Part shown: positions 41,391-57,917 of the stretch, piece after piece | Numbering within the stretch: position 1 is the stretch's first letter | How the letters are laid out: the number at the start of each line of letters is the position of its first letter | Source of the DNA: Citrobacter sp. MGH106 | GTDB taxonomy: Bacteria; Pseudomonadota; Gammaproteobacteria; Enterobacterales; Enterobacteriaceae | Direction: 5' to 3' | Length of the DNA stretch: 64,000 bases | Assembly: GCF_001037495.1 (NCBI RefSeq) | Contig: NZ_KQ089823.1 | Coordinates: 124,001-188,000 of the forward strand | Notes under the pieces: model-generated | Seen by the model: only the letters and a program-made list of their open reading frames with translations | What the model was told of the DNA's origin: nothing | The model's database searches: none | Translations under genes and position numbers: made by a program

Positions 41391-41415
41391 AACTACCAAC
41401 CGGGGTAGTTCTTAC
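41391..41415 (+). terminator. Hairpin after yhhT
   Basis: AACTACC-AACCGG-GGTAGTT forms a seven-pair stem three bases past the yhhT stop, followed by CTTAC. The T tract is poor, so termination may be partial. Confidence 0.5.
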
Positions 41416-41827: not shown

Positions 41828-42217
41828 ATGAAACAGTATATTAAATGGTTTGCGGCAATTGCTGTTGTCGGTGCGCTGGCAGGTTGTGCGCGTACCGCGC
41901 CGATTGATCAAGTACACTCCAGCGTTAGCGCAGGGCACACTCAGGATCAGGTAAAAACCGCTATTCTGAAAGCAGGCGTTCAACGCCAGTGGATCATGTC
42001 TGAGGTTAGCCCTGGCGTCATCAAAGCACGTCAGCAAACCCGCGATCATGTGGCTGAAGTCCGTATTACCTATACCGCCACCAGCTACGACATCAAATAT
42101 GACAGCAGCCTCAATCTGCAGGCTTCAGGCGGGAAAATTCACAAAAACTATAACCGCTGGGTGCGCAATCTGGATAAAGACATCCAGATCAATTTGTCAA
42201 CCGGTGCCAATCTGTAA
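41828..42217 (+). CDS. apeA: Aryl polyene cluster lipoprotein (ApeA)
   Basis: 129 residues. Signal peptide and lipobox VGALAGC with Cys20, then a small soluble domain (residues 30-129) with no catalytic motif that I recognise; TATSYDIKYDSSLNLQ and KNYNRWVRNLDKDIQ are typical of small enteric envelope lipoproteins. AGGGAG precedes the ATG. First gene of the cluster. A hairpin separates it from the next gene, so it may be made in greater amount. The ape letters follow the E. coli/Xenorhabdus scheme by gene order from memory; position A of A-R fits exactly. Confidence 0.75.
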   Translation: MKQYIKWFAAIAVVGALAGCARTAPIDQVHSSVSAGHTQDQVKTAILKAGVQRQWIMSEVSPGVIKARQQTRDHVAEVRITYTATSYDIKYDSSLNLQASGGKIHKNYNRWVRNLDKDIQINLSTGANL

Positions 42218-42229
42218 TTATGCCTAAAG

Positions 42230-42248
42230 TCGGGCCGATAAGGCCCGA
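42230..42248 (+). other. Intercistronic hairpin between apeA and apeB
   Basis: TCGGGCC-GATAA-GGCCCGA is a perfect seven-pair stem 12 bases after the apeA stop and 38 before apeB. No T run follows, so it may protect an apeA 3' end or attenuate, rather than end, transcription. Confidence 0.55.
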
Positions 42249-42285
42249 TACTCTAACTATCTGCCATTTAACAGGTTGTTCCCAC

Positions 42286-43347
42286 ATGTACGAACAGGAT
42301 TCGCTTAGCGCACTGGATGCCATTACTGAAGCACAACGAATCGCATTTGCCCCTATGCTTTTTCAAACCGCGTTGTGCCTGCGAAATGCGGGAGTACTCG
42401 CCTGGCTGGACAAGCAAGGTAAACGCGGCGCGACACTCGACGAAATTACTGAAAACAGTACCATCAACGAATATGCCGCCAGCATACTGCTGGATATGGG
42501 GTTAAGCGGGCGAATCATTACCTATAAAGAGGGGCATTATTACCTCGCTAAAGTCGGTCATTTTCTTTTACATGACACGATGACGCGTGTGAATATGGAT
42601 TTCACCCAGGATGTTTGCTATCAGGGTTTGTTCTATCTGGAGAATGCGCTGAAAGAAGGAAAACCCGCTGGATTAAAAATCTTTGGTGACTGGCCAACAA
42701 TCTATCCCGCTCTGTCGCAATTACCGCCGGCTGCGCGTGAAAGTTGGTTTGCTTTCGATCATTACTATTCAGATGGGGCATTTGACGCCGCACTGCCATA
42801 TGTATTCGCCAGCGCCCCTGCAACCCTGTACGATATTGGCGGAAATACCGGGAAATGGGCATTACGTTGTTGTCAACATGATGACAATATTGCAGTAACC
42901 CTATTAGATTTACCGCAACAAATTGCACTTGCACGTGAAAATATCGAAAATGCAGGATTATCTCATCGCATAAATTTCCATCCTGTGGATATGCTTAGCG
43001 ATTCGCCTTTACCCGCCGAGGCGGATATCTGGTGGATGAGCCAATTCCTGGATTGTTTTTCTCCGGAACAAATTATCACCATGCTTAGCAATATTGCCCG
43101 CGTGATGAAACCCGGCGCAAAGTTGTGCATTATGGAACTGTTTTGGGATGCCCAAAAATTTGAAGCGGCCTCATTTAGCCTGAATGCGTCTTCGCTTTAT
43201 TTTACCTGTATGGCGAATGGCAACAGCCGTTTCTACAGCGTAGAGAAGTTTTATCACTATCTGAATCAGGCAGGATTTCAGGTAGATGAACGCCACGACA
43301 ACTTAGGTGTTGGACATACTTTATTGATATGTCAGAAGAAAAAATAA
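42286..43347 (+). CDS. apeB: SAM-dependent O-methyltransferase of the aryl polyene cluster (ApeB)
   Basis: 353 residues. The N-terminal winged-helix-like domain (residues about 10-100, with AASILLDMGLSGRI) and the C-terminal Rossmann domain with SAM motif YDIGGNTGKWALRCC and acidic post-motif VTLLDLPQQIALAREN match the Methyltransf_2 family of O-methyltransferases. Mature aryl polyenes often carry an O-methylated aryl head, so modification of the head hydroxyl is the likely role. I chose ATG 42286 (MYEQDSLSALD); the open frame upstream crosses the hairpin. AGG lies about 11 bases upstream, a weak site. Confidence 0.82.
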   Translation: MYEQDSLSALDAITEAQRIAFAPMLFQTALCLRNAGVLAWLDKQGKRGATLDEITENSTINEYAASILLDMGLSGRIITYKEGHYYLAKVGHFLLHDTMTRVNMDFTQDVCYQGLFYLENALKEGKPAGLKIFGDWPTIYPALSQLPPAARESWFAFDHYYSDGAFDAALPYVFASAPATLYDIGGNTGKWALRCCQHDDNIAVTLLDLPQQIALARENIENAGLSHRINFHPVDMLSDSPLPAEADIWWMSQFLDCFSPEQIITMLSNIARVMKPGAKLCIMELFWDAQKFEAASFSLNASSLYFTCMANGNSRFYSVEKFYHYLNQAGFQVDERHDNLGVGHTLLICQKKK

Positions 43348-43387
43348 TAAACAATCGGAACTACCGATTTATCGCGGACGCGCGTTG

Positions 43388-44110
43388 ATGAAATTTGCAT
43401 TAAACATTATCGACTGGCAGGCCAAGGCGCCAGGGTTAAGCGAAAGGACACAGTGGCATGAATGGTCACGGCTTTCGCACGCTATCGATCCAGCCGCACC
43501 ACTGGCTAAACTCAGCGAGTTACCGATGATGACGGCTCGCCGCCTCAGTTCCGGCAGCAAGCTGGCCGTCGATTGCGGGCTGGCGATGCTACGCCGCCAT
43601 AAGATCGATGCCATCCTCTATACCAGCCGCCACGGTGAACTGGAGCGTAACTACCGGATCCTGCACGCCCTGGCGACAGAGCAGGCACTCTCACCGACCG
43701 ATTTTGCCCTTTCTGTGCATAACTCCGCCGTGGGTAACCTGACTATCGCTGCGAAAAAACCGATCGTCTCCTCCTCGCTCTCTGCAGGCAGGGATACATT
43801 CCAGCAAGGATTATGCGAAGTCATGAGCCTGTTGCAGGCGGGATATCAGCGCGTGTTAATGGTCGATTTCGACGGTTTTCTGCCTGAGTTTTATCACCCA
43901 CAACTGCCTCCTGAAATGCCGACATGGCCATTTGCCGTCGCGCTGGTAATTGAATCAGGTGATACCTGGCAATGCAAAACCCGTCCGCATAGCGCCCATA
44001 GTGAGACCTCGTTGCCGCAAAGCTTGTTGTTTTTACAGCACTATCTACAGGATATCGATACGTTTACCCTGCCGGGTGAACGCGTGCAGTGGCAGTGGAG
44101 TCAGGGATGA
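43388..44110 (+). CDS. apeC: Ketosynthase-like chain-length partner (ApeC)
   Basis: 240 residues, about 60% of a full ketosynthase. It matches the beta-ketoacyl-synthase N-terminal-like family; the place expected for the active cysteine reads FALSVHNSAVGNLTIAAKKP, with no Cys, and the His residues of the C-terminal half are absent. It is therefore probably not catalytic by itself and acts as a partner (chain-length factor) of a full ketosynthase such as ApeO. ATG 43388 has GGA 9 bases upstream; TTG 43385 is an alternative. Stop overlaps the next ATG (ATGA). Confidence 0.8.
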   Translation: MKFALNIIDWQAKAPGLSERTQWHEWSRLSHAIDPAAPLAKLSELPMMTARRLSSGSKLAVDCGLAMLRRHKIDAILYTSRHGELERNYRILHALATEQALSPTDFALSVHNSAVGNLTIAAKKPIVSSSLSAGRDTFQQGLCEVMSLLQAGYQRVLMVDFDGFLPEFYHPQLPPEMPTWPFAVALVIESGDTWQCKTRPHSAHSETSLPQSLLFLQHYLQDIDTFTLPGERVQWQWSQG

Positions 44111-44922
44111 ACAGGATACTTCTGCGCCTTAATTGGGGATGGCGGCTGGTAATGACCGGATTTTGCTTTGCCTTGTTTGGTCTCGGGGGACTACTGCTTT
44201 CTACTATCTGGTTTAACTTATTGTTAGTTGCGATATGGAATAATACCAGACGTCGGCGCATCGCCAGACGCAGCATTGCCGCCAGTTTTCGTCTCTTTTT
44301 AACCGTGGCGAAACGACTTGGCGTACTGGATTACCGCATTGAAGGACGAGATATCTTGCGCAAAGAGCGAGGGTGTCTGGTGGTCGCCAATCATCCGACG
44401 CTAATCGACTATGTGTTACTGGCCTCGGTTATGCCGGAAACGGACTGCCTGGTGAAAAGCGCGCTCCTGAAGAATCCGTTCCTCGGCGGCGTAGTCCGGG
44501 CGGCAGATTACCTGATTAATAGTCAGGCCGATGCGCTATTGCCTGCCTGCCAGCAACGGCTGGAACAAGGCGATACAATTTTAATTTTCCCCGAGGGTAC
44601 TCGCACACGCCCCGGAGAGGAAATGACGCTACAGCGCGGTGCAGCAAATATCGCTGTGCGCTGCAGCAGCGATTTACGCATAGTGACCATTAACTGCAGC
44701 GAACAAATGCTGGATAAAGAAAGCAAATGGTATGACGTCCCATCGGTAAAACCAGTATTTACTATTTCAGTACACGAACGAGTTAAAATCGATCAATTTT
44801 ACGATGCAAATTCACAAGAACCGGCGCTGGCTGCAAGGCAGTTAAACCGGCATCTTTTGCTTCAATTACAACCAGGTAATTTACCTCTTTCAGGAATTAA
44901 TGATGCAAGCGCTTTATCTTGA
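44107..44922 (+). CDS. apeD: PlsC-type acyltransferase (ApeD)
   Basis: 271 residues. One N-terminal membrane segment (MTGFCFALFGLGGLLLSTIW), then the 1-acyl-glycerol-3-phosphate acyltransferase domain: NHPTLIDYVLL is the catalytic NH-X4-D box and FPEGTRTRPGE the acyl-acceptor motif. Likely joins the aryl polyene acyl chain to a lipid or sugar acceptor at the inner membrane. Start overlaps apeC by four bases; the last 20 bases overlap apeE. Confidence 0.83.
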   Translation: MNRILLRLNWGWRLVMTGFCFALFGLGGLLLSTIWFNLLLVAIWNNTRRRRIARRSIAASFRLFLTVAKRLGVLDYRIEGRDILRKERGCLVVANHPTLIDYVLLASVMPETDCLVKSALLKNPFLGGVVRAADYLINSQADALLPACQQRLEQGDTILIFPEGTRTRPGEEMTLQRGAANIAVRCSSDLRIVTINCSEQMLDKESKWYDVPSVKPVFTISVHERVKIDQFYDANSQEPALAARQLNRHLLLQLQPGNLPLSGINDASALS

Positions 44923-45160
44923 AATCAAAAATCTCATTATAACGACACTGAATCTCGACGAACTGACAGCTGACGATATTGAAACCGAAGCGGCACTCTT
45001 TGGTGATGGCTTAGGGCTGGACTCGATCGATGCTCTGGAGCTGGGTCTGGCGGTGAAAAACGAGTATGGCGTGGTGCTCTCTGCTGAGAGTGAAGAGATG
45101 CGCCAGCACTTCTTCTCCGTCGCCACGCTGGCATCTTTCATTCACGCGCAACGTGCCTGA
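44903..45160 (+). CDS. apeE: Acyl carrier protein (ApeE)
   Basis: 85 residues. The phosphopantetheine site is Ser41 in DGLGLDSIDALELGLAVK, with the classical DSI/L motif. Acidic overall. Two adjacent ATG codons (44900 and 44903) are possible; AGGA lies 4 and 7 bases before them, so the second is better placed. One of two consecutive ACPs; having two carriers suggests separate roles for starter and extender chains. Confidence 0.9.
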   Translation: MQALYLEIKNLIITTLNLDELTADDIETEAALFGDGLGLDSIDALELGLAVKNEYGVVLSAESEEMRQHFFSVATLASFIHAQRA

Positions 45161-45172
45161 GGATAGTCCGTT

Positions 45173-45424
45173 ATGACCGAACAAAAAGCCATTTACGAAG
45201 AAGTCTCCTCGCTGCTGGTTAAGCTATTCGAAGTCGACCCACAGGATATCAAGCCTGAGGCACGCCTGTACGAAGATCTGGAGCTCGACAGCATTGATGC
45301 CGTCGACATGATCGTGCATCTGCAAAAGAAAACCGGTAAGAAAATCAAGCCGGAAGAGTTCAAAGCAGTACGCACCGTACAAGATGTCGTCGATGCGGTA
45401 GAACGCCTTCTTAAAGAAGCGTAA
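45173..45424 (+). CDS. apeF: Acyl carrier protein (ApeF)
   Basis: 83 residues. Phosphopantetheine Ser40 in EDLELDSIDAVDMIVHLQKK. GAGGA precedes the ATG. More basic helix III (KKTGKKIKPEEFK) than ApeE, so the two ACPs are likely recognised by different enzymes. AcpT at the end of the cluster is the probable holo-ACP synthase. Confidence 0.9.
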   Translation: MTEQKAIYEEVSSLLVKLFEVDPQDIKPEARLYEDLELDSIDAVDMIVHLQKKTGKKIKPEEFKAVRTVQDVVDAVERLLKEA

Positions 45425-45430
45425 CTCACC

Positions 45431-46012
45431 GTGTCGGGCACTCGCTCGCTGCCAGTCGTACAACTGCTAACAGGTTTACTGCTGTTGGCCTGGCCATTTT
45501 TAATCTGGTTTGGCCTGGCGCATAACAGCCTGCACTGGCTGCTGCCGTTGATGGCGCTACTCCTGTTTTTGCGCTTTCGCCAGACCCGGCGACAGGCGGG
45601 GCCGTTGCGCGTCGTGACACAGGTAGTGGCGGTCGCTGGCATCACACTGTGCATTGCCAGCTATCTGCTCAAAACGCACCAACTGTTGCTGTTTTATCCG
45701 GTGGTGGTAAATGGCGTCATGCTGGCGGTATTTGGTGGCTCACTCTGGTCAGCCATGCCAATTGTCGAACGGCTGGCGCGACTGCGTGACCCAAACCTTC
45801 CCGAAGCGGGCGTGCGCTACACTCGCCGTGTGACGCAAATCTGGTGCGCCTTTTTCATCCTTAACGGCAGCGTTGCGCTTTTTACCGCACTGTATGGCGA
45901 TATGTCACTGTGGACGACCTGGAACGGTATGATCTCCTATCTGCTGATGGGAACACTCATGGCGGGTGAGTGGTTAGTTCGCCAACAGATGATAAAACGA
46001 GATACCCAATGA
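45431..46012 (+). CDS. apeG: Integral membrane protein of the aryl polyene cluster (ApeG)
   Basis: 193 residues starting at GTG 45431 with no clear SD; it lies 6 bases after the apeF stop, so coupling is likely. About six membrane segments (LLTGLLLLAWPFLIWFGLA, WLLPLMALLLFL, VVAVAGITLCIASYLL, LLFYPVVVNGVMLAVFGG, FFILNGSVALFTALY, MISYLLMGTLMAG). Corresponds to the COG4648-type protein always found in these clusters; role unknown. Its TGA overlaps the apeH ATG. Confidence 0.78.
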   Translation: MSGTRSLPVVQLLTGLLLLAWPFLIWFGLAHNSLHWLLPLMALLLFLRFRQTRRQAGPLRVVTQVVAVAGITLCIASYLLKTHQLLLFYPVVVNGVMLAVFGGSLWSAMPIVERLARLRDPNLPEAGVRYTRRVTQIWCAFFILNGSVALFTALYGDMSLWTTWNGMISYLLMGTLMAGEWLVRQQMIKRDTQ

Positions 46013-47370
46013 AGCAGCCCCTCACTCTTGCTCAATGGCTCAGTGCCCCACGTCCGGACGGAGTGCCTGTGGCGTGGCAGGAAGAGCACACCTGGACACT
46101 TGGTCATCTGCGCCATGATGTGGCCCGGTTGATAACACATCTGCAGCAGCAGGAAGGTGAACGCTGGGCATTGTGCTTCGAGAACAGTTATTTATTTATC
46201 GTCGCACTGCTGGCAACGCTCCACGCAGGCAAAATACCGGTGATCCCTGGTCATTGCCGTGTTTCATTATTAAACGAGCAGCATGCGCTGTTTGATGGCG
46301 TACTGAGCGATAAAGCGCTGGACTGGCAAGGTGCACTGCTGGTTGTCAGTTCTGCCATGAAACCCGCTACCTACGATATTACTTTCCCGGCAATACCCAG
46401 CGACGCCTTCGTGGAACTCTTCACCTCCGGCTCCACCGGCCAACCGAAACGGGTCATCAAGCCAATCAATCGTCTGGATAACGAAGCCGCGCTGCTCGCG
46501 ACGCGTTTTGCCGATCGCCTGGCAGGTTGTCGGGTGGTCGCGTCAGTGGTGCCACAGCATCTGTATGGTCTGACGTTTCGTATCTTCTTGCCAATGGCCT
46601 TAGGTTTACCGTTACATGCTGCAATGCTGTGGTACGCCGAGCAGTTGGCGGCGCTAAGCCATGAACATCGCTATGTGTTTATCAGCAGCCCGGCGTTTCT
46701 GAAACGCCTCGACCATCAGCTTACCCCGCCGCCGGTCGAGATGATTCTGTCCGCAGGCGGCATGCTGCCCTGGCAGGACGTCACGCAGGCCGCTGACTGG
46801 CTGAACGTATGGCCCGATGAGATCTACGGCAGCACCGAAACCGGCATCCTCGCCTGGCGTTATCGCCAGCGGGATGATGTGGCATGGCAGCCCTTCCCGG
46901 GGGTCATATTCCAGCCAGAAAACGAGGCATTTCGCGTGTTTTCTCCACTTATCGCCGCTGATGATGGCCTGTTGCTCGACGATATTCTGCATTTTACAGA
47001 AAGCGGGCAGTTCCGTCTGATGGGTAGACGGGGTCGCGTGGTCAAAATTGAAGAGAAGCGTATTTCACTCAGCGAAGTGGAGCAACGCTTACTGGCTCTG
47101 GACGGTATCCGCGAAGTCGCGGCATTGCCCGTCTCACGCGGAGGGCGTCAGGGAGTTGGCGTCCTGTTAGTGCTGGATAACGAGGCGCGTCAACGCTGGC
47201 ATGAATGCGGGGGGAAACCGCAAGAGCTGAGCTGGAGGCGCTCGCTGCTGCCGTGGCTGGAGCCGGTCGCCGTTCCTCGCTACTGGCGCGTGATTGACGA
47301 AATCCCGGTCAACAGTATGAACAAGCGTGTCTATGCGCAATTACAGGAGTTATTTCATGAAACCCCATGA
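46009..47370 (+). CDS. apeH: Acyl-AMP ligase activating the aryl starter (ApeH)
   Basis: 453 residues of the ANL superfamily. P-loop VELFTSGSTGQPKRVIKP, A5 motif IYGSTETGILAWR, A8 hinge GRRGRVVKIEEKRISLSEVE, and the C-terminal catalytic Lys in NSMNKRVYAQL. Loads an aryl carboxylate (4-hydroxybenzoate type in described systems) onto an ACP. ATG 46009 overlaps apeG TGA; the last 14 bases overlap apeI. Confidence 0.87.
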   Translation: MKQPLTLAQWLSAPRPDGVPVAWQEEHTWTLGHLRHDVARLITHLQQQEGERWALCFENSYLFIVALLATLHAGKIPVIPGHCRVSLLNEQHALFDGVLSDKALDWQGALLVVSSAMKPATYDITFPAIPSDAFVELFTSGSTGQPKRVIKPINRLDNEAALLATRFADRLAGCRVVASVVPQHLYGLTFRIFLPMALGLPLHAAMLWYAEQLAALSHEHRYVFISSPAFLKRLDHQLTPPPVEMILSAGGMLPWQDVTQAADWLNVWPDEIYGSTETGILAWRYRQRDDVAWQPFPGVIFQPENEAFRVFSPLIAADDGLLLDDILHFTESGQFRLMGRRGRVVKIEEKRISLSEVEQRLLALDGIREVAALPVSRGGRQGVGVLLVLDNEARQRWHECGGKPQELSWRRSLLPWLEPVAVPRYWRVIDEIPVNSMNKRVYAQLQELFHETP

Positions 47371-47710
47371 AATCGAGCGCCACCAGGCACAGCCTCAACA
47401 GGCTGAGATCGTTTTACATCTCGACCCTTCTTTGTTCTGGTTCAGCGGGCATTTTGCTGTGCAGCCACTGCTGCCTGGCGTTGCACAGCTGGATTGGGTG
47501 ATGCATTACGCCACCACGCTGCTGATCCCCGGCTGGCGTTTTCACAGTATTCAGAACGTGAAATTCCAGTCACCGCTCCTGCCGGGAACAACCGTAACCC
47601 TGAGTCTGAGCTGGCAGGAAGAGCGTCAGATGCTCTCTTTCAGCTACCAGCGTCACGACGGCGAAGCGCGTCATACCGCCAGCAGCGGGAAGATTCGGTT
47701 ATGTCACTAA
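47357..47710 (+). CDS. apeI: Hotdog-fold 3-hydroxyacyl-ACP dehydratase (ApeI)
   Basis: 117 residues. FabA/FabZ-like active-site motif GHFAVQPLLPGVAQLD, with His32 and Asp46 as likely catalytic residues. Makes the double bonds of the polyene from 3-hydroxyacyl-ACP. CAGGAG is 7 bases before ATG 47357, which lies inside apeH. Its end overlaps apeJ by ten bases. Confidence 0.86.
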   Translation: MKPHEIERHQAQPQQAEIVLHLDPSLFWFSGHFAVQPLLPGVAQLDWVMHYATTLLIPGWRFHSIQNVKFQSPLLPGTTVTLSLSWQEERQMLSFSYQRHDGEARHTASSGKIRLCH

Positions 47711-49392
47711 CCTTTTCCCCTTGCGTGCTGATCCCTTGCTACAACCATGGCGCGATGATGTCGCGCGTACTGGCACGTCTACAGCCGTTTGACCTCCCCT
47801 GCATTGTGGTCGACGATGGCAGTGATGACGCCACACGGGATGAACTGGCTCGCCTGGCAGCTGAAAATAGCAATCTGACATTAATCCGCCTGCCTGTAAA
47901 CGCGGGCAAAGGTGCTGCGGTGCTCCGGGGAATGCAGGCCGCGGCAGACGCAGGGTTCAGCCATGCGGTGCAAGTGGATGCCGACGGACAGCATGACATT
48001 GAAGATATTCCCAGACTGCTTGCGCTGGCGAAAGAACATCCGACGGCGCTGATTTCCGGACAACCGATTTACGATGGCTCAATTCCCCGCTCGCGCCTGT
48101 ACGGACGCTGGGTAACCCACGTCTGGGTGTGGATAGAAACGCTTTCACTGCAGTTAAAAGACAGCATGTGCGGTTTCCGGGTGTATCCGGTTGCGCCAAC
48201 GCTTCAACTGGCGCAGCGCGTGACGCTTGGCAAGCGAATGGATTTTGACACCGAAGTGATGGTACGCCTCTACTGGCAAGGCAACACCAGCTATTTTATT
48301 CCAACCAGGGTTACCTACCCACTGGATGGACTGTCCCATTTCGACGCGCTCAAAGACAACCTGCGCATTTCACGGATGCATACACGCCTGTTCTTTGGCA
48401 TGTTGCCGCGCATCCCTTCCCTGCTTCTTCGCCGCTCATCCACACACTGGGCACATCAGCAAGAGGTCAAAGGGCTGTGGGGAATGCGTCTGATGGTGCT
48501 GGTCTGGCGTTTTCTGGGACGCAAGGTATTTTCCCTGATGCTATATCCGGTAGTCGGCGTTTACTGGCTCACGGCTTCGGCCGCTCGTAAAGCATCTCAG
48601 AGCTGGATTAGCCGCGTACGGGCACAACTGACCGCACGTCAGATGGCAGTGCCGTCAAACCTGACCAGCTATCAACATTTCCTGCGTTTTGGCGACGCAA
48701 TGTTGGATAAAATTGCCAGTTGGCGCGGTGAACTGCACTTTGGTCGCGATGTGGTTTTCGCGCCAGGCGCAGAAGAGGCGTTAAACGTCAGCGATCCGCG
48801 GGGAAAACTACTGCTGGCTTCACATCTGGGCGATGTCGAAGCCTGTAGGGCTCTGGCCCAACTACAGGGCAGCAAAACCATCAATGCACTGGTATTCAGC
48901 GAGAACGCCCAGCGTTTCAGGCAAATCATGGAAGAGATGGCCCCACAGGCCGGACTAAACCTGCTTCCGGTGAACGATATCGGCCCGGATACCGCCATTC
49001 TGCTCAAAGAGAAACTGGAGCGCGGAGAATGGATCGCCATCGTCGGCGATCGCATCGCGGTAAATACCCAACGTGGCGGCGAATGGCGCGTCTGCTGGAG
49101 CCGCTTTATGGGACAAGCTGCTCCCTTCCCGCAGGGGCCGTTTATCCTTGCGTCTATTTTACGCTGCCCGGTCGATCTGATTTTTGCCCTGCGCCAGCAG
49201 AATAAACTACGCATTCACTGCGAGCCGTTTGCCGACCCGTTGCTCTTACCGCGCGCCAGCCGGCAACACGCGTTACAGAATGCTATCGATCGCTACGCCG
49301 AACGCCTGGAGCACTATGCGCTTCAGTCGCCGCTTGACTGGTTTAACTTTTTCGATTTCTGGCAACTGCCGGATACCAAAGACAAGGAGTAA
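47701..49392 (+). CDS. apeJ: Fused glycosyltransferase 2 - LpxL-type acyltransferase (ApeJ)
   Basis: 563 residues. Residues about 1-235 are a GT2 glycosyltransferase (PCIVVDDGSDDATRD and VQVDADGQHDIEDI nucleotide-sugar Asp motifs). After a hydrophobic stretch near 265-300, residues about 310-560 are a lipid A-type acyltransferase with ASHLGDVEACRAL (HX4D/E) and IVGDRIAVN. The fusion couples sugar and acyl transfer, suggesting that the polyene is attached to a glycosylated lipid. The upstream frame extension overlaps apeI and is not used; MSLTFSPCVLIPCYNH is the family start. Confidence 0.85.
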   Translation: MSLTFSPCVLIPCYNHGAMMSRVLARLQPFDLPCIVVDDGSDDATRDELARLAAENSNLTLIRLPVNAGKGAAVLRGMQAAADAGFSHAVQVDADGQHDIEDIPRLLALAKEHPTALISGQPIYDGSIPRSRLYGRWVTHVWVWIETLSLQLKDSMCGFRVYPVAPTLQLAQRVTLGKRMDFDTEVMVRLYWQGNTSYFIPTRVTYPLDGLSHFDALKDNLRISRMHTRLFFGMLPRIPSLLLRRSSTHWAHQQEVKGLWGMRLMVLVWRFLGRKVFSLMLYPVVGVYWLTASAARKASQSWISRVRAQLTARQMAVPSNLTSYQHFLRFGDAMLDKIASWRGELHFGRDVVFAPGAEEALNVSDPRGKLLLASHLGDVEACRALAQLQGSKTINALVFSENAQRFRQIMEEMAPQAGLNLLPVNDIGPDTAILLKEKLERGEWIAIVGDRIAVNTQRGGEWRVCWSRFMGQAAPFPQGPFILASILRCPVDLIFALRQQNKLRIHCEPFADPLLLPRASRQHALQNAIDRYAERLEHYALQSPLDWFNFFDFWQLPDTKDKE

Positions 49393-49395
49393 AGG

Positions 49396-49818
49396 GTGCT
49401 TAACGATCCCCGATTTACGGCTGAAGTCGAGCTGACTATTCCGTTCCATGACGTCGATATGATGGGCGTCGCGTGGCATGGCAACTACTTCCGCTATTTC
49501 GAGATTGCCCGTGAGGCACTGCTGAACCAGTTCGATTACGGCTATCGGCAGATGAAAGAATCTGGCTATCTGTGGCCGGTGGTCGATACACGGGTGAAAT
49601 ACCGTAACGCCCTGACCTTCGAACAGCGTATCCGTGTACGTGCTCAGATTAAGGAATTCGAAAATCGTCTGCGTATCGGCTACGAAATTTTCGATGCTGA
49701 AACAGGGAAACGCGCCACCACGGGCTACACCATTCAGGTCGCGGTGGACGAAAAAAGTCGCGAGCTATGCTTCGTCAGCCCGGATATTCTGTTTGAACGC
49801 ATGGGGGTCACACCATGA
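49396..49818 (+). CDS. apeK: 4HBT-type acyl-ACP/CoA thioesterase (ApeK)
   Basis: 140 residues from a GTG start at 49396 with AAGGAG 6 bases upstream. Hotdog thioesterase signature FHDVDMMGVAWHGNYFRYFE, close to YbgC-type enzymes. Could release finished chains or clear stalled ones. TGA overlaps the apeL ATG. Confidence 0.86.
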   Translation: MLNDPRFTAEVELTIPFHDVDMMGVAWHGNYFRYFEIAREALLNQFDYGYRQMKESGYLWPVVDTRVKYRNALTFEQRIRVRAQIKEFENRLRIGYEIFDAETGKRATTGYTIQVAVDEKSRELCFVSPDILFERMGVTP

Positions 49819-50420
49819 AATTATGGCCACTGCTGGCGCTACTCATCAGCCCATTCGTCAGCGCCCTGACGCTTGACTCCCTGCAACAGCGTTTTACCGA
49901 ACAGCCGGTAGTCCGTGCCCGCTTCGATCAAACCCGGACGATAAAGGATCTGCCGCAGCCGTTGCGATCTCAGGGCCGGATGCTGATCGCACGCGACCAG
50001 GGCTTACTGTGGGATCAAACCGCTCCGTTCCCGATGCAGTTGCTGCTGGATGACAAACGGATGGTTCAGGTGATTAACGGTCAGCCACCACAAACCATCA
50101 CCGCCGATAACAACCCGCAAATGTTCCAGTTCAACCATCTGCTGCGTGCGTTATTCCAGGCGGATCGTAAAGTGCTGGAGCAGAACTTCCGTGTAGAGTT
50201 TGCAGATTTAGGTGAAGGCCGCTGGACACTACGCCTGACGCCTATTACCACACCGCTGGATAAGATTTTTGCGACTATTGATTTAGCCGGAAAAACCTAT
50301 CTGGAGAGTATTCAGCTCAACGATAAACAGGGCGATCGCACCGATATCGCGCTTTCTCAACACCAACTGACGCCAGCGCAACTGACCGATGACGAACGCC
50401 AACGCTTTGCAACCCAGTAA
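49815..50420 (+). CDS. apeL: LolA-like periplasmic carrier (ApeL)
   Basis: 201 residues. Signal peptide LWPLLALLISPFVSA, then a LolA/LolB-type domain (LQQRFTEQPVVRARFDQTRT, GLLWDQTAPFPMQLLLD). Predicted to carry a lipid-linked aryl polyene, or a lipoprotein, across the periplasm to the outer membrane. Its last 32 bases overlap apeM if apeM starts at 50389. Confidence 0.84.
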   Translation: MKLWPLLALLISPFVSALTLDSLQQRFTEQPVVRARFDQTRTIKDLPQPLRSQGRMLIARDQGLLWDQTAPFPMQLLLDDKRMVQVINGQPPQTITADNNPQMFQFNHLLRALFQADRKVLEQNFRVEFADLGEGRWTLRLTPITTPLDKIFATIDLAGKTYLESIQLNDKQGDRTDIALSQHQLTPAQLTDDERQRFATQ

Positions 50421-52707
50421 ACGTCCCGCGCTGTTATGGGGAATCGCCTGCCTGATACTGCTGGGCGTTTTGCTGACGCTGCTACCTCAGGCGCGTCTCA
50501 ACAGCAGCGTGCTGGCAATGTTGCCAAAACAGACGTTGGGGACCATACCACCGAGCCTGAACGAAGGTTTCATGCAGCGCCTCGACCGGCAACTGGTCTG
50601 GCTGGTGAGTCCCGGTAAACGGCCAGACCCGGCGGTGGCCCGCGGCTGGCTGACGTTGCTGCAAAAATCACACGCGCTGGCACAGGTGAAAGGCCCGATG
50701 GATGCCGACAGCCAGCAGGCATGGGGTGCATTCTTCTGGCAAAATCGCAACGGCCTGATAGATAACGACACCCGCGCCAGACTGCAAAACGGCGGTGAAG
50801 CGCAGGCCCAGTGGATCCTCTCCCAACTTTACTCAGCCTTTTCCGGCGTCAGTGGTAAAGAGCTGCAAAACGATCCACTGATGCTGATGCGCGGCTCGCA
50901 GCTGGCGATGGCCAAAAACGGCCAGCGCTTGCGCCTGATGGATGGCTGGCTGGTCACTCAGGATGAACAAGGCAACTACTGGTATCTGCTGCACGGCGAA
51001 CTGACCGGTTCATCGTTTGATATGCAACAGACACACCACCTGGTCACCACGCTTACTACGCTGGAAAATGAACTCAAAGCACAATATCCCCAGGCACAAC
51101 TGTTGTCGCGCGGGACGCTGTTCTATAGCGATTACGCCAGCCAGCAGGCGAAACAAGACATCTCTACCCTCGGTATAGCTACCGTGATCGGGGTGATACT
51201 GCTGATTGTGGCGGTGTTTCGCTCGCTGCGCCCGCTGCTGCTATGCCTGATTTCGATTGGTGTTGGCGCGCTGGCGGGTACTGTCGTCACGCTGCTGATT
51301 TTCGGTGAACTCCACCTGATGACGCTGGTTATGAGCATGAGCATCATCGGTATTTCCGCTGACTATACGCTCTACTATCTGACCGAGCGGATGGTACACG
51401 GTGCGGAAACATCGCCATGGCAAAGTCTCGCCAAAGTGCGTAACGCACTGCTGCTGGCCTTACTCACCACCGTCGCAGCATACCTGATCATGATGCTGGC
51501 CCCCTTCCCCGGAATCCGTCAAATGGCGGTATTCGCGGCGGTGGGTCTGAGCGCCTCCTGCCTGACGGTGATTTTCTGGCACCCATGGCTGTGCCGCAGT
51601 CTGCCGGTGCGTCCGGTTCCGGCGATGGTGCTGATGTTACGTTGGCTTGCCGCCTGGCGACGCAATAAAAAACTTGCCGTTGGCCTGCCAGTAGCGCTGG
51701 CGCTGTTCTCGCTGGCAGGCATGGCGACGCTGCGCGTGGACGATGATATCTCCCAGCTACAGGCGCTGCCGCAGGATATTCTGGCTCAGGAAAAAGCGAT
51801 TACTGCCCTGACCGGGCAAAGCGTCGATCAGAAGTGGTTTGTGGTGTACGGCAAATCTGCACAACAAACGCTGGAGCGGCTGGAAACCTTTATTCCGGCG
51901 CTGGAACAGGCGAAAAAAGAGGGATTACTCGGCGGATATCGCACTATTCCGCTAAATTCGCTCGCCCGACAGCAACAGGATCTCACTCTGCTTAAAGACG
52001 CTGCGCCCGCCGTAACGAAAGCCCTGAATCACGCCGGACTGGCAACGGTAAATCCCGACCTTACCGCCATGCCGGTAACAGTCGAAGCCTGGCTTGCCAG
52101 TTCAGCCAGCGAAGGCTGGCGGTTACTGTGGCTGACACTGGCTGATGGCGAGAGCAGCGTACTGGTTCCCGTTGAAGGCGTTAAACAAAGTACGGCATTA
52201 AACACACTCAGCGCGAAATATCCCGGCGTCGCGTGGGTGGACCGTAAGAGCAGCTTCGACACGCTTTTCGCCCTGTATCGCCATATCCTGACCGGCCTGC
52301 TATGCATTGCGCTGGCGGTAATCGCTTGCGGGGCTGTCATCCGACTTGGCTGGCGTAAGGGTTTTATCAGCCTGGTACCCTCAGTGCTGTCTTTAGGTTG
52401 TGGTCTGGCGGTACTGGCCCTGAGTGGTCATGCGCTCAACCTGTTCTCACTGCTGGCCCTGGTGCTGGTATTGGGAATCGGCATTAACTACACGCTGTTT
52501 TTCAGTAATCCACGCAGCACACCGCTGACATCGCTGCTGGCTATCACTCTGGCGATGATGACCACGCTCCTGACGCTCGGCATGCTGGTATTCAGCGCCA
52601 CTCAAGCCATCAGCAGTTTTGGCATTGTACTGGTGAGCGGTATTTTCACCGCATTCCTGCTTTCACCACTGGCGATGCCTGGTAAAAAAGAGAAAAAAAG
52701 AAAATGA
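50389..52707 (+). CDS. apeM: MMPL/RND-type exporter (ApeM)
   Basis: 772 residues with the MMPL layout: one N-terminal segment, a large periplasmic loop (about 45-255), five segments, a second single segment near 440, second loop (about 460-635), and a last block of five segments. ISADYTLYYLTERM and GIGINYTLFFSNP are the paired TM4/TM10 proton-relay motifs. Likely exports the aryl polyene lipid. The ATG 50389 has no good SD; TTG 50407 is an alternative that shortens the overlap with apeL. Confidence 0.86.
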   Translation: MTNANALQPSKRPALLWGIACLILLGVLLTLLPQARLNSSVLAMLPKQTLGTIPPSLNEGFMQRLDRQLVWLVSPGKRPDPAVARGWLTLLQKSHALAQVKGPMDADSQQAWGAFFWQNRNGLIDNDTRARLQNGGEAQAQWILSQLYSAFSGVSGKELQNDPLMLMRGSQLAMAKNGQRLRLMDGWLVTQDEQGNYWYLLHGELTGSSFDMQQTHHLVTTLTTLENELKAQYPQAQLLSRGTLFYSDYASQQAKQDISTLGIATVIGVILLIVAVFRSLRPLLLCLISIGVGALAGTVVTLLIFGELHLMTLVMSMSIIGISADYTLYYLTERMVHGAETSPWQSLAKVRNALLLALLTTVAAYLIMMLAPFPGIRQMAVFAAVGLSASCLTVIFWHPWLCRSLPVRPVPAMVLMLRWLAAWRRNKKLAVGLPVALALFSLAGMATLRVDDDISQLQALPQDILAQEKAITALTGQSVDQKWFVVYGKSAQQTLERLETFIPALEQAKKEGLLGGYRTIPLNSLARQQQDLTLLKDAAPAVTKALNHAGLATVNPDLTAMPVTVEAWLASSASEGWRLLWLTLADGESSVLVPVEGVKQSTALNTLSAKYPGVAWVDRKSSFDTLFALYRHILTGLLCIALAVIACGAVIRLGWRKGFISLVPSVLSLGCGLAVLALSGHALNLFSLLALVLVLGIGINYTLFFSNPRSTPLTSLLAITLAMMTTLLTLGMLVFSATQAISSFGIVLVSGIFTAFLLSPLAMPGKKEKKRK

Positions 52708-53288
52708 TCAAACAGACATTCTGGCGCGCCGCCGCACTGGTCGCTACGTTAATTCTCACCGGATGCAGCCACTCACAGCCGGAACAGGAAGGCCGTCCGC
52801 AAGCGTGGCTGGAGCCGGGCACACGCGTGACGCTGCCTGCCCCGGGGATTTCCCCCCAGGTTAATTCACAACAGTTGCTGACCGGCAGTTTTAACGGCAA
52901 AACCCAGTCACTGTTGGTAATGCTTAACGCCGACGACAGGAAAATAACGCTTGCCGGGCTGTCGTCGGTCGGCATTCGTCTGTTTCTTGTGACTTACGAT
53001 GAAAAAGGCTTACATACCGAACAATCAATCATCGTGCCGCAACTGCCGCCCGCCAGCCAGGTGCTGGCTGACGTGATGCTCAGCCATTGGCCAATTAGCG
53101 CCTGGCAGCCACAATTGCCGAAAGGCTGGACGCTCATTGATATGGGTGACACACGCGAACTGCGCAACGCCAACGGCAAACTGGTTACGGAAATCACGTA
53201 TCTGAATCGGAAAGGAAAACGCGAGCCGATCAGTATCGAGCAGCACGTTTTTAAATACCACATCACCATTCAATATCTGGGTGACTGA
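52704..53288 (+). CDS. apeN: DUF3261-type lipoprotein (ApeN)
   Basis: 194 residues; lipobox TLILTGC with Cys21. The rest resembles DUF3261 proteins found in these clusters (LTGSFNGKTQSLLVMLNADD, then a long middle part). Probably an outer-membrane acceptor paired with the LolA-like ApeL. Overlaps apeM by four bases (ATGA). Confidence 0.82.
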   Translation: MIKQTFWRAAALVATLILTGCSHSQPEQEGRPQAWLEPGTRVTLPAPGISPQVNSQQLLTGSFNGKTQSLLVMLNADDRKITLAGLSSVGIRLFLVTYDEKGLHTEQSIIVPQLPPASQVLADVMLSHWPISAWQPQLPKGWTLIDMGDTRELRNANGKLVTEITYLNRKGKREPISIEQHVFKYHITIQYLGD

Positions 53289-53289
53289 G

Positions 53290-54459
53290 ATGATCTACAT
53301 TTCTGCCGTTGGCATGATTAACGCATTGGGCAACGACGCCGATGAAATTGCAGCTAACCTCACACGTGGCATTGCACCCGGAATGCGCGCCCGCACAGAC
53401 TGGCTACAAGGGCATCTGTGCGCCGTATTAGCAGGCATTGACGGTGAACTTCCGACCATTCCCGACAATTTTCGCGCCCATCGTTCACGCAATAATCAGC
53501 TGCTGCTGGCGGCACTGGCGCAAATCCAGCCACAGGTGGATGACGCCATCGCCCGGTATGGCCGCGATCGGATTGCTATCGTGCTCGGCACCAGTACCTC
53601 CGGGCTGGATGAAGGTGACGTTCACGTTGATCTCACGCTCAATGGCAAAGTGAGCACCGAATGGCACTATCCGCAGCAGGAGTTGGGCGATCCCTCGCGC
53701 TTTCTCAGCCACTGGCTGGCGCTGGATGGTCCGGCCTTTACCCTCTCAACTGCCTGTTCATCCAGCGCGCGCGCTATTATGAGCGGACGTCGCCTGATTG
53801 AATCCGGTCTGGCGGACATCGCGATTGTTGGCGGTGCTGATACGCTCAGTCGGATGCCAATCAACGGCTTCCACAGTCTGGAATCCCTCTCCCTGACGCG
53901 GTGTCAGCCGTTTGGCCGCGACCGTAGCGGGATCACCATCGGCGAAGGTGCCGCGTTGATGCTATTGACCCGTGAACCACAGCCCATTGCGCTACTGGGC
54001 GTCGGTGAATCCAGCGACGCTTACCATATTTCAGCTCCCCATCCACAGGGGGAAGGTGCTATTCGCGCCATAGGCCAGGCGCTTAACGACGCGGGGATTA
54101 CGCCGGATCAGGTAGGCTATATCAATCTGCACGGTACCGCTACACCGTTAAACGATCAGATTGAGTCCAAAGTCGTGAACGCGATTTTTGGCGAAAATGT
54201 CCCGTGCAGTTCGACTAAACACCTGACCGGGCACACGCTGGGCGCGGCCGGGATTACCGAAGCAGCCATCAGTATGTTGATTTTACAACGCGACCTGCCG
54301 CTGCCGCCGCAGGATTTTAGCCAGTCGCCACGCGATGAAACGCTGCCGCCCTGCGGCATCATTGAGCAGCCGCAGCCGCTGGCTCGCCCGGTAATCTTGT
54401 CTAATTCGTTTGCCTTCGGCGGGAACAATGCCAGTATCCTGCTCGGGAGAATCTCATGA
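53290..54459 (+). CDS. apeO: Ketosynthase (ApeO)
   Basis: 389 residues, FabF-like. Catalytic triad present: Cys156 (TLSTACSSSARAI), His281 (NLHGTATPLND) and His315 (TKHLTGHTLGAAG), with Lys310. Extends the polyene by decarboxylative condensation. GTG 53281 is an earlier possible start; ATG 53290 gives the family N-terminus MIYISAVGMINALG and lies one base after the apeN stop. TGA overlaps apeP. Confidence 0.88.
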   Translation: MIYISAVGMINALGNDADEIAANLTRGIAPGMRARTDWLQGHLCAVLAGIDGELPTIPDNFRAHRSRNNQLLLAALAQIQPQVDDAIARYGRDRIAIVLGTSTSGLDEGDVHVDLTLNGKVSTEWHYPQQELGDPSRFLSHWLALDGPAFTLSTACSSSARAIMSGRRLIESGLADIAIVGGADTLSRMPINGFHSLESLSLTRCQPFGRDRSGITIGEGAALMLLTREPQPIALLGVGESSDAYHISAPHPQGEGAIRAIGQALNDAGITPDQVGYINLHGTATPLNDQIESKVVNAIFGENVPCSSTKHLTGHTLGAAGITEAAISMLILQRDLPLPPQDFSQSPRDETLPPCGIIEQPQPLARPVILSNSFAFGGNNASILLGRIS

Positions 54460-54932
54460 GCCACTATTTATCGCCTGGCGACTATTTACCGCACGATGCG
54501 CCGATGCTGCTACTCGAAGAGGTCGCAAGCGTGACGGACGAGACCGCCATCTGCCACGTGACAATATCAGCAAACAGCGTGCTGGCCCCCTTTCTCGATC
54601 CAGACGGCAACCTGCCCGGCTGGTTCGCCCTGGAATTAATGGCGCAGACCATCGGCGTCTGGTCTGGCTGGCACCGTCAGCAACAAGGTCAGGAGAGTAT
54701 TGCTTTAGGCATGGTGCTTGGCGCGCGCGAGTTAGTCTGTGCTGCGGGGGTTCTGCCTGCAGGCAGGATGCTAAGTATCAATGTCAAATTGCTGATGCAG
54801 GACGCACGTTTCGGCAGCTTCGAATGCGCCATTCAGGCGGGCGAAGAGACGCTGGCAACCGGTCGCGTCAACACCTTCCAGCCGACATCTGAAGAAATTA
54901 ACACGCTATTTCAACAAGGAGCGTCCACATGA
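54456..54932 (+). CDS. apeP: Hotdog-fold dehydratase (ApeP)
   Basis: 158 residues, FabA/FabZ superfamily. YLPHDAPMLLLEEV carries the likely His13 and FALELMAQTIGVWSGW the Glu60 of the active site. Second dehydratase of the cluster beside ApeI; an ApeI-ApeP pair is described for other aryl polyene systems. Overlaps both neighbours by four bases. Confidence 0.86.
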   Translation: MSHYLSPGDYLPHDAPMLLLEEVASVTDETAICHVTISANSVLAPFLDPDGNLPGWFALELMAQTIGVWSGWHRQQQGQESIALGMVLGARELVCAAGVLPAGRMLSINVKLLMQDARFGSFECAIQAGEETLATGRVNTFQPTSEEINTLFQQGAST

Positions 54933-55660
54933 GTCGTTCAGTTTTAGTTACGGGTGCCAGCAAAGGTATCGGTCGCGCCATCGCCCTACAGTTGGCGGCG
55001 GACGGTTTTGTGGTCGGCGTTCACTATCATCGTGATGCGCAAGGTGCGCAAGAAACGCTAGATTCTATCCTCACCGCTGGTGGCGCAGGGCGTCTGCTGA
55101 CGTTTGATGTTGCTAATCGCGAACAGTGCCGTGAAGTACTGGAGCAGGATATTGACGCACATGGCGCATGGTACGGCATCATCAGCAACGCCGGGGTCAC
55201 CCGCGATGCCGCTTTCCCTGCGCTCAACGATAATGACTGGGATGCGGTGATCCACACCAACCTCGACAGTTTCTATAACGTCATTCATCCATGCATTATG
55301 CCGATGATTAGCGCACGCCAGGGCGGACGTATCATCACGCTGTCCTCGGTTTCCGGCATAATGGGCAATCGCGGCCAGGTCAATTACAGTGCAGCAAAAG
55401 CAGGGATTATCGGTGCAACCAAAGCGCTGGCCATTGAGCTGGCAAAACGCAAAATCACCGTAAATTGCATCGCACCGGGACTCATTGATACCGGAATGAT
55501 CGAGATGGAGGAAGCCGCGCTGAAAGAGGCCATGTCGATGATCCCAATGAAACGGATAGGTCAGGCCGAAGAAGTGGCCGGACTTGCCAGCTATTTAATG
55601 TCGGATGTGGCGGGTTATGTGACTCGTCAGGTGATTTCCATCAATGGAGGGATGTTATGA
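54929..55660 (+). CDS. apeQ: FabG-like ketoreductase (ApeQ)
   Basis: 243 residues, short-chain dehydrogenase. NADPH motif GASKGIGRAIAL, NAG motif ISNAGVTRDAAF, catalytic Asn111, Ser140, Tyr153 and Lys157 (VNYSAAKAGI). Reduces the 3-ketoacyl-ACP each cycle. Overlaps apeR by four bases. Confidence 0.9.
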   Translation: MSRSVLVTGASKGIGRAIALQLAADGFVVGVHYHRDAQGAQETLDSILTAGGAGRLLTFDVANREQCREVLEQDIDAHGAWYGIISNAGVTRDAAFPALNDNDWDAVIHTNLDSFYNVIHPCIMPMISARQGGRIITLSSVSGIMGNRGQVNYSAAKAGIIGATKALAIELAKRKITVNCIAPGLIDTGMIEMEEAALKEAMSMIPMKRIGQAEEVAGLASYLMSDVAGYVTRQVISINGGML

Positions 55661-56886
55661 CACGTCGTGTCGTGATTACAGGCATGGGCGGCGTCACCGC
55701 CTTTGGGGAAAAATGGCAGGATGTCTCCGCCAGGTTACTGGCGTATGAAAATGCGGTACGCAAAATGCCGGAGTGGCAGGTTTATGACGGACTGCACACG
55801 CTGCTTGGCGCGCCGATCGACGATTTCACCCTGCCGGAACACTATACCCGCAAGCGTATTCGCGCCATGGGACGCGTGTCGCTGATGTCCACGCGCGCAT
55901 CCGAACTGGCACTTGAACAAGCAGGGCTGATTGGCGATCAGATACTGACCAACGGTGAAACTGGAATCGCGTACGGTTCCTCCACCGGAAGTACCGGCCC
56001 GGTGAGCGAGTTCGCCACCATGCTGACCGAGAAGCACACCAATAACATCACCGGCACAACTTACGTGCAGATGATGCCGCACACCACTGCCGTTAACACC
56101 GGTCTGTTTTTCGGCCTGCGCGGGCGGGTAATCCCAACCTCCAGCGCCTGCACCTCTGGTAGTCAGGCGATTGGTTACGCATGGGAAGCTATTCGACACG
56201 GTTATCAAACGGTGATGGTCGCAGGCGGCGCAGAAGAACTGTGTCCTTCTGAAGCCGCGGTGTTTGATACACTATTCGCCACCAGCCAGCGCAACGATGC
56301 ACCGAAAACCACCCCCTCCCCGTTTGATGAAAAACGCGATGGTCTGGTGATTGGTGAGGGCGCGGGCACGCTGGTGCTGGAAGAACTGGAACACGCTAAA
56401 GCGCGCGGGGCCACTATTTACGGCGAAATCGTCGGTTTTGCTACCAACTGCGATGCTGCGCATATTACCCAACCACAACGCGAAACGATGCAGATTTGCA
56501 TGGAAAAATCGCTGAAGATGGCCGGTATTGGTGCCCGGGATATCGGTTATATTTCTGCACATGGTACCGCAACCGATCGTGGTGATATTGCAGAAAGCCA
56601 GGCAACCGCCGCAGTTTATGGTGATAATGTACCGCTCTCCTCGCTTAAAAGTTATTTTGGGCATACCCTTGGCGCCTGTGGCGCACTGGAAGCCTGGATG
56701 AGTCTGCAAATGATGCGTGAAGGCTGGTTTGCACCTACGCTAAATTTGAGCCAGCCAGATGCCAATTGCGGCGCGCTGGATTACATTATGGGTGAAGCCC
56801 GCAAGATTGATTGTGAGTTCCTGCAGAGCAATAACTTTGCGTTTGGCGGCATCAACACTTCCATTATCATCAAACGTTGGCCCTGA
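55657..56886 (+). CDS. apeR: Ketosynthase (ApeR)
   Basis: 409 residues. Cys165 (TSSACTSGSQAIGYAWE), His302 (SAHGTATDRGD), Lys331 and His336 (LKSYFGHTLGACG) give a complete active site. Second full ketosynthase, possibly for the first condensation on the aryl starter while ApeO with ApeC elongates; which does which cannot be read from sequence. Followed one base later by acpT. Confidence 0.88.
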   Translation: MTRRVVITGMGGVTAFGEKWQDVSARLLAYENAVRKMPEWQVYDGLHTLLGAPIDDFTLPEHYTRKRIRAMGRVSLMSTRASELALEQAGLIGDQILTNGETGIAYGSSTGSTGPVSEFATMLTEKHTNNITGTTYVQMMPHTTAVNTGLFFGLRGRVIPTSSACTSGSQAIGYAWEAIRHGYQTVMVAGGAEELCPSEAAVFDTLFATSQRNDAPKTTPSPFDEKRDGLVIGEGAGTLVLEELEHAKARGATIYGEIVGFATNCDAAHITQPQRETMQICMEKSLKMAGIGARDIGYISAHGTATDRGDIAESQATAAVYGDNVPLSSLKSYFGHTLGACGALEAWMSLQMMREGWFAPTLNLSQPDANCGALDYIMGEARKIDCEFLQSNNFAFGGINTSIIIKRWP

Positions 56887-56887
56887 T

Positions 56888-57466
56888 ATGTACCGGATCG
56901 TTCTCGGGAAAGTTTCTACTTTAAGCGCTGGCACATTGCCTCCCGCGCTCTTCGAGCAGGCACCGCAGGGTGCTCGCCGTGAACGCTGGCTGGCGGGCCG
57001 CGTGCTGCTTTCCCATACCCTTTCGCCATTGCCTGACATCATCTACGGCGAGCAAGGAAAACCGGCTTTTACAGCCGACACGCCGCTATGGTTCAACCTT
57101 AGCCACAGCGGCGATGACATCGCTCTGCTGCTCAGCGACGAAGGGGAAGTGGGCTGCGATATTGAAGTCGTACGCCCACGCGACAACTGGCAGACGCTGG
57201 CAAATACGGTGTTCAGCCTGAGAGAACATGCCGAAATAGAAGCAGAACATCCAGACCAACAGCTGGCGGCTTTCTGGCGTATCTGGACGCGTAAAGAAGC
57301 CATCATTAAACAGCGAGGTGGTAGCGCCTGGCAAATTGTCAGCGTCGACAGCACCACGCTGACATCCTCGCTCTCTGTTAGCCAGTGTCAGCTCGATACG
57401 CTGAGCCTGGCAGTGTGTACTCCGACACCATTTACCCTGACAGCCGACGCCGTTCAGAGGCTGTAA
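56888..57466 (+). CDS. acpT: 4'-phosphopantetheinyl transferase AcpT
   Basis: Converts apo-ACP to holo-ACP. 192 residues against 195 in E. coli; the C-terminus ends a few residues early. Sfp-family motifs VGCDIEVVRPRDNW (Mg ligands) and WRIWTRKEAIIKQRG. The frame is open upstream in apeR, but ATG 56888 matches the E. coli start MYRIVLGKVSTLSA and lies one base after the apeR stop. E. coli K-12 keeps acpT while lacking the ape genes, in keeping with acpT being the remnant of such a cluster. Confidence 0.94.
   Translation: MYRIVLGKVSTLSAGTLPPALFEQAPQGARRERWLAGRVLLSHTLSPLPDIIYGEQGKPAFTADTPLWFNLSHSGDDIALLLSDEGEVGCDIEVVRPRDNWQTLANTVFSLREHAEIEAEHPDQQLAAFWRIWTRKEAIIKQRGGSAWQIVSVDSTTLTSSLSVSQCQLDTLSLAVCTPTPFTLTADAVQRL

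Positions 57467-57509: not shown

Positions 57510-57917
<408 letters not shown>

Follow-up and report, generated by a model that had tools for sequence, protein, structure and literature searches.

Why should a bacterium keep acpT, the gene of a phosphopantetheinyl transferase (PPTase), at a site from which the aryl polyene (APE) pigment genes beside it are missing? The question is raised by a locus of Citrobacter sp. MGH106, analyzed here within a stretch of 64,000 nucleotides (the window; contig NZ_KQ089823.1, positions 124,001 to 188,000), in which a complete APE cluster of the Escherichia coli type (APE_Ec) is joined to acpT. In related bacteria the locus exists in two forms, yhhT-apeA-R-acpT and yhhT-apeR stub-acpT, and the window represents the cluster-bearing one. 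The cluster type is already known, and the window adds one more host to a pathway studied in E. coli. More unusual is the absence of the pigment genes from this site in most E. coli and many Citrobacter, which nonetheless keep acpT intact; this pattern of orphan acpT, which arose from checking a remark on K-12 in an earlier note on this DNA, is the part worth following up.

The identity of the cluster follows from its one-to-one, collinear homology to the experimentally studied cluster of E. coli CFT073. When 21 proteins of the window were searched, each of the 18 CFT073 Ape proteins found its best match in the product of the gene at the same position (73-94% amino acid identity), which bears out the assignment made in the earlier note; the Ape proteins of an acpT-joined E. 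coli cluster (L002) matched at 75-94%. Pfam agrees with the functions assigned to 16 of the 18 products, those of apeA and apeG giving no Pfam match. The 18 consecutive ape genes that had been claimed do form an unbroken row on the plus strand (41828-56886), bracketed together with acpT by yhhT and nikR; the span given for them (41828..57466) has the right start and the 18 genes, but its end is that of acpT, so it holds 19 genes. With gene starts set by the E. coli proteins, neighbours overlap by at least 4 bases at 11 of 18 junctions, that of acpT counted, in agreement with the "at least ten" noted before, and a single base separates the apeR stop from the acpT start.

Neither frameshifts nor internal stops were seen in the 18 ape genes and acpT of the window. 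ApeR and ApeO contain Cys-His-His and ApeQ contains YxxxK, both acyl carrier proteins (ACPs), ApeE and ApeF, combine a PP-binding match with DSI serines (LDSIDA motif), and AcpT, which matches the PPTase family, has the Mg-binding D-x-E and the WTRKEA (WxxKEA) motif; we take these motifs to be active-site signatures. Dehydratases of the ApeI and ApeP types are present, and UbiC, the source of the 4-hydroxybenzoate starter, is encoded elsewhere in the host genome by an open reading frame (ORF) of 166 codons matching PF04345 and followed by a UbiA-like ORF; one TGA was listed within the matched stretch, and the frame when read out is uninterrupted. Nonsynonymous divergence (dN) from the E. coli cluster is well below synonymous divergence (dS) in each of the 18 ape genes, with dS near saturation. 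ApeR of the window shares 98% identity with its counterparts in C. youngae and two Citrobacter sp. records, which places the host near C. youngae.

L002 and other E. coli clusters, which we take to be the O157:H7 form of De Lay and Cronan (2006), share with the window both the 18 genes and the chromosomal site yhhT-[ape]-acpT, and L002 differs in having nikABCDE between acpT and nikR. The clusters of C. youngae and C. gillenii (L006, L009; ApeR 96-98% identical to that of the window) likewise have acpT and nikR directly downstream, and over these loci, which cover 10 kb upstream of apeR, sequence divergence is the only difference seen. E. coli K-12 has the orthologous AcpT (84% identity) and yhhT on its left, whereas all 18 ape genes are gone from this site and a stub of apeR is left. 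CFT073 carries the same 18 genes in the same order (c1204-c1186, apeA-R; as set out in the part of PMC8253772 used here), but downstream of dgcT, where an integrase gene and numerous broken genes are also found; its cluster, as described there, includes no PPTase, and its acpT is an orphan at the yhhT site. APE clusters have also been reported in two O157 segments, according to the portion of PMC9205054 consulted.

The orphan form is common. Among 5426 complete E. coli genomes, 804 covered the cluster query to at least 80% at one place, or 805 when the CFT073 cluster served as query. Of these 5426, 5375 have acpT, which is joined to apeR in 553 and stands at the K-12-type yhhT-acpT junction in 4822, the two classes accounting for all acpT genomes. 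By subtraction (805 - 553), about 252 genomes hold the cluster away from acpT; CFT073 and M22546 were the two inspected. The loss suggested earlier for K-12 is supported by the apeR 3' stub retained there, but it is not specific to K-12. Within the genus of the window, acpT was found in 17 of 17 genomes, joined to ape genes in 6 and beside yhhT without them in 11, one of which (G002) has all 18 ape genes elsewhere. Across 246 genomes of the family, acpT-like hits (E up to 2.1e-16) occurred in 65 and apeR matches of at least 1000 bases in 83; in 51 of the 65 they lie next to each other at a distance of 1-177 nt, and the other 14 acpT-like hits are without such an apeR. Among loci of ApeR relatives an acpT-like match stood alongside apeR in 54 of the best 80 of 452.

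The junction itself records how the orphan form arose. The 20 nt that precede the start codon of K-12 acpT are identical to the apeR 3' end and spacer base of L002 and encode IKRWP and a stop. Since the C-terminus IKRWP or IKRWA also closes ApeR in clusters that do not lie beside acpT (CFT073, L014, L027, L031, L055), the stub belongs to apeR, and orphan acpT therefore descends from a cluster-linked acpT. Twelve E. coli orphans (ten fetched, K-12 and CFT073) have the same junction, differing from the K-12 sequence by two base changes at most. A partly similar one, aligning with it in part on both sides, occurs in the 11 orphan genomes within the genus of the window and in g139, g45 and g94, three more genus groups with two genomes each, and a separate deletion in each of these groups and E. 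coli is accordingly not favoured; in the window's genus the stub is worn (CTAAAGGTTAGCCCTGA against TTAAACGTTGGCCCTGA). The sequence immediately after yhhT looks different where the cluster is present, in E. coli as well as in most cluster-bearing alleles of the genus; a CTACC-GGTAG hairpin follows yhhT in the window, L111-L115 and L152-L155, and was not seen in the orphan alleles whose sequences were compared (for the linked border 10 regions were fetched, with a yhhT match in 6).

Scored as ungapped matches over the 24 bases right of the yhhT stop, with one representative per group and two for the genus, K-12 agrees with g45 at 16 positions, with g94 at 14 and with L103 of the genus at 14; g45 and g94 agree at 14 and g94 and L103 at 12, the chance per pair being 0.00055 for at least 14 matches and 0.008 for at least 12. 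K-12 and five linked representatives share 3-5. Several pairs speak against a single shared deletion: g45 and L103 match at 9, L099 matches K-12 at 7, g45 at 4 and g94 at 7, and comparably high values occur in other pairs (L099 and linked L112, 12; g94 and L112, 11; linked L002 and linked L153, 13). One old deletion common to these groups is the simplest reading, and its support is no more than moderate. At least one further deletion was separate, because L122 (g140) has a stub of its own that resembles the apeR end of its linked relative L130; L123-L125 show no clear apeR stub.

Read by eye, the K-12 junction (L003 7912-7968) also forms a small ORF of 19 codons with the stop, which overlaps yhhT at its stop codon (ATGA) and terminates with the former apeR stop immediately upstream of acpT. 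Some other orphan groups appear to have short ORFs of this kind as well (junctions L117-L121, also by eye). Such an ORF could couple acpT translation to that of yhhT.

Orphan acpT is not decaying in E. coli, in the window's genus, or in g45, g94 and g139, where its constraint is near that of cluster-linked acpT. The mean pairwise dN/dS (Nei-Gojobori) was 0.075 for orphans (n=12) and 0.073 for linked genes (n=5) of E. coli, 0.060 (n=11, dS 0.59) and 0.073 (n=6) in the window's genus, and 0.098, 0.081 and 0.077 for the orphan pairs of g45, g139 and g94. Constraint was weaker in the g74 orphans L124-L125 (0.339) and in L123-L131 (0.240), the linked pair L131-L132 giving 0.155. All 33 orphan sequences are open at full length (192-206 amino acids), and 31 of the 33 keep both D-x-E and WTRKEA, the exceptions being L116 (E to Q) and L123 (D to S); the SHSGD motif is altered in L123 and L124.

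The constraint persists where further carriers are not detected. Exactly three PP-binding family hits were found in 8 of the 11 orphan genomes of the genus, with the ORF sizes of AcpP, EntF and EntB (and named by size only), against five in each of the six linked genomes; G002 gave 13, and G008 and G013 gave 4 each. In those eight genomes acpT has a dN/dS of 0.064 at dS 0.55, and in five of them, which fall in an acpT-tree branch without linked members (support 90/70), 0.070. A divergent carrier could be missed, as the ApeE carriers themselves matched the family only at E about 3e-6 to 4e-5.

Two of the genomes with additional hits deserve a remark of their own. G008 has a second acpT-like gene (58% amino acid identity; G008:C10:1796000-1802000, L109) and, about 4 kb from it, an extra PP-binding ORF of 100 codons (G008:C10:1803307-1803471), perhaps together another carrier system with its own PPTase. 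The extra small PP-binding ORF of G013 (88 codons, G013:C1:2662728-2662925) is a possible partner of the orphan AcpT there.

How these observations fit together depends on the history of the two forms. The acpT tree follows host groups, and the orphan or linked label (33 and 21 rows) needs 13 changes on it, at least 6 of them forced by well supported branches; shuffled labels need 16.9, and 20 of 500 shuffles were as low, so that the label is weakly clustered. One AcpT accession, WP_000285784.1, was found in both orphan and linked E. coli. The cluster-bearing form has repeatedly given way to the deleted one, and vice versa. Grouping by host and not by cluster presence, and the accession common to both forms, speak for the view that the orphan form is the older one and that, in E. 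coli as in this Citrobacter group, acpT-joined clusters came later, by import and recombination into the site beside a resident orphan acpT; the divergence between the window and L002 points the same way, since dS is lower in 11 of the 18 ape genes (0.93-1.34; the median over the 18 being 1.21) than in each of the three flanking genes tested (nikR 1.43, yhhT 1.56, acpT 2.11). We nevertheless regard such an import as unlikely, because the orphan carries the apeR 3' end, and its stub must have come at some point from an ape cluster at this site, because linkage of apeR and acpT is the common state of the family, and because an ape dS near 1 is not recent when compared with 0.44 for genus-linked acpT; recombination may still have brought clusters into backgrounds already deleted. 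The data do not support that the cluster passed between E. coli and this Citrobacter in recent times, ape dS being at least 0.93, the lower values relative to the flanks notwithstanding.

As to what keeps the orphan, our tentative explanation, which we put a little short of an even chance, is that AcpT has a second, APE-independent job under full purifying selection, both locus forms being very old alleles swapped by recombination within Escherichia and Citrobacter. A somewhat more doubtful one gives AcpT no other job and has the orphan maintained only through frequent return of the cluster or recombination with linked alleles. It could draw on the roughly 252 E. coli genomes with the cluster away from acpT and on G002, but it has to account for the low ratio in the genus over considerable synonymous divergence and for its persistence in the eight genomes without further detected carriers and on the branch without linked members. 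Published work also offers a role that does not need catalysis: in the parts of PMC7240159 and PMC10607373 used here, multicopy AcpT acts on yejM/lapC mutants without its catalysis, and titration of FtsH is suggested in the former. Retention for a non-catalytic role only is not favoured in view of the 31 of 33 orphans with both motifs, as such multicopy effects would not explain the kept catalytic residues. Among the literature matches listed no title concerned how widely the orphan junction occurs among genera or whether orphan acpT is under selection, and De Lay and Cronan (2006, 2008) may treat part of it.

In the window, the cluster very probably represents an intact operon of the APE_Ec type for biosynthesis and export with its own carrier-protein activator, and an APE lipid is the most likely product of the strain, AcpT serving as activator. 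By analogy with the pathway of E. coli and Xenorhabdus described in the part of PMC8253772 consulted, AcpT would place phosphopantetheine onto ApeE and ApeF, UbiC would make 4-hydroxybenzoate for loading by ApeH, and ApeO with ApeC would extend the chain by malonyl units, with reduction by ApeQ and dehydration by ApeI and ApeP. ApeB would methylate the head group, ApeK would release the acid, ApeD and ApeJ would join it to a lipid, and ApeM, ApeL and ApeN would carry the APE lipid to the outer membrane, the product being a cell-bound yellow lipid protective against oxidative stress. The same portion of PMC8253772 reports that the CFT073 cluster conferred strong yellow pigment on an E. coli cloning strain, that APE guards against oxidative stress and adds to biofilm, that most core ape deletions abolished the pigment, and, citing De Lay and Cronan (2006), that the ApeEF homologues are activated in vitro by AcpT of O157:H7. 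It also reports that an extract of the apeR deletion still contained the primary APE lipid, which contradicts the earlier proposal to look for pigment loss in an apeR mutant; such a test would mislead.

Some points weigh against a working operon of this type. The scan counted 9 promoter-like sites, where shuffles gave 12.0, and 21 terminator-like sites, where they gave 18.4; neither number exceeds chance. ApeH is the least conserved Ape protein (73-75%), so that the starter unit is not certain. The promoter scan would suit a silent or decaying copy with no product in this strain, which we consider very improbable given that all 19 genes are open, that active-site motifs are kept wherever looked for, and that every ape gene shows the low dN relative to dS described above.

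Table 1 Features of the yhhT-ape-acpT-nikR region (window positions; percentages are amino acid identities)
Feature	Position	Strand	Predicted product or description	Support
yhhT	40342..41388	+	AI-2E family transporter, left border here and in E. coli	88.5% K-12 YhhT
hairpin	41391..41410	+	3' of yhhT (AACTACC...GGGGTAGTT), terminator-like by eye	
apeA	41828..42217	+	lipoprotein-like	76% CFT073 ApeA, 82% L002
apeB	42286..43347	+	S-adenosylmethionine methyltransferase	83% CFT073; PF00891
apeC	43388..44110	+	ketosynthase-like chain-length factor	83% CFT073; PF13723
apeD	44107..44922	+	acyltransferase	82% CFT073; PF01553
apeE	44903..45160	+	acyl carrier protein	89% CFT073; PF00550
apeF	45173..45424	+	acyl carrier protein	89% CFT073; PF00550
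apeG	45431..46012	+	membrane protein, COG4648 type (label from Table 1 of PMC8253772)	77% CFT073
apeH	46009..47370	+	acyl-ACP synthetase (AMP-binding)	73% CFT073; PF00501
apeI	47357..47710	+	dehydratase	79% CFT073; PF22818 ApeI-like, 9.4e-38
apeJ	47701..49392	+	glycosyltransferase/acyltransferase	82% CFT073; PF00535 (GT2)
apeK	49396..49818	+	thioesterase	94% CFT073; PF13279
apeL	49815..50420	+	LolA-like carrier	93% CFT073; PF19574
apeM	50389..52707	+	MMPL/RND exporter	85% CFT073; PF03176
apeN	52704..53288	+	DUF3261 lipoprotein, LolB-like (label from Table 1 of PMC8253772)	90% CFT073; PF11659
apeO	53290..54459	+	elongating ketosynthase	87% CFT073; PF00109/PF02801; Cys-His-His motifs
apeP	54456..54932	+	dehydratase	77% CFT073; PF22817 ApeP-like, 4e-41
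apeQ	54929..55660	+	ketoreductase (short-chain dehydrogenase/reductase)	88% CFT073; PF13561
apeR	55657..56886	+	ketosynthase	94% CFT073; PF00109/PF02801
acpT	56888..57466	+	phosphopantetheinyl transferase	84% K-12 AcpT; PF01648, 1.2e-13
nikR	57516..57917	+	right flank	96% K-12 NikR

The hairpin of Table 1 was not picked up by the terminator scan. On the right flank, acpT and nikR lie without nikABCDE between them, and no match to nikA, nikB or nikC was found anywhere in the window, nikD and nikE giving paralogue-level matches only, elsewhere in it. The same genes are also missing between acpT and nikR in L006-L009. In the window's genome nikA (85%), followed by nikB and nikC matches, lies at G000:C1:1944845-1946410 (L086), away from the window, and NikR is thus apart from the transporter genes presumed to be under its control. 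Within E. coli, the acpT-joined cluster L002 and the island form L005 differ in ApeA (65%), ApeG (81%), ApeH (66%) and ApeI (71%), the remaining 14 Ape proteins being 94-100% identical. This mosaic pattern may point to a difference in the starter unit or in the attachment.

The value of the Citrobacter cluster is comparative, as it displays the acpT locus in a form not present in most E. coli. With the orphan form common, found beyond E. coli and under selection, the retention of the orphan PPTase in K-12 becomes a testable question. If the tentative reading of a second job is true, the "orphaned" AcpT of K-12 is not a leftover, and in cells without ape carriers its partner would be AcpP, EntB or EntF, a carrier missed by Pfam, or a non-catalytic target.

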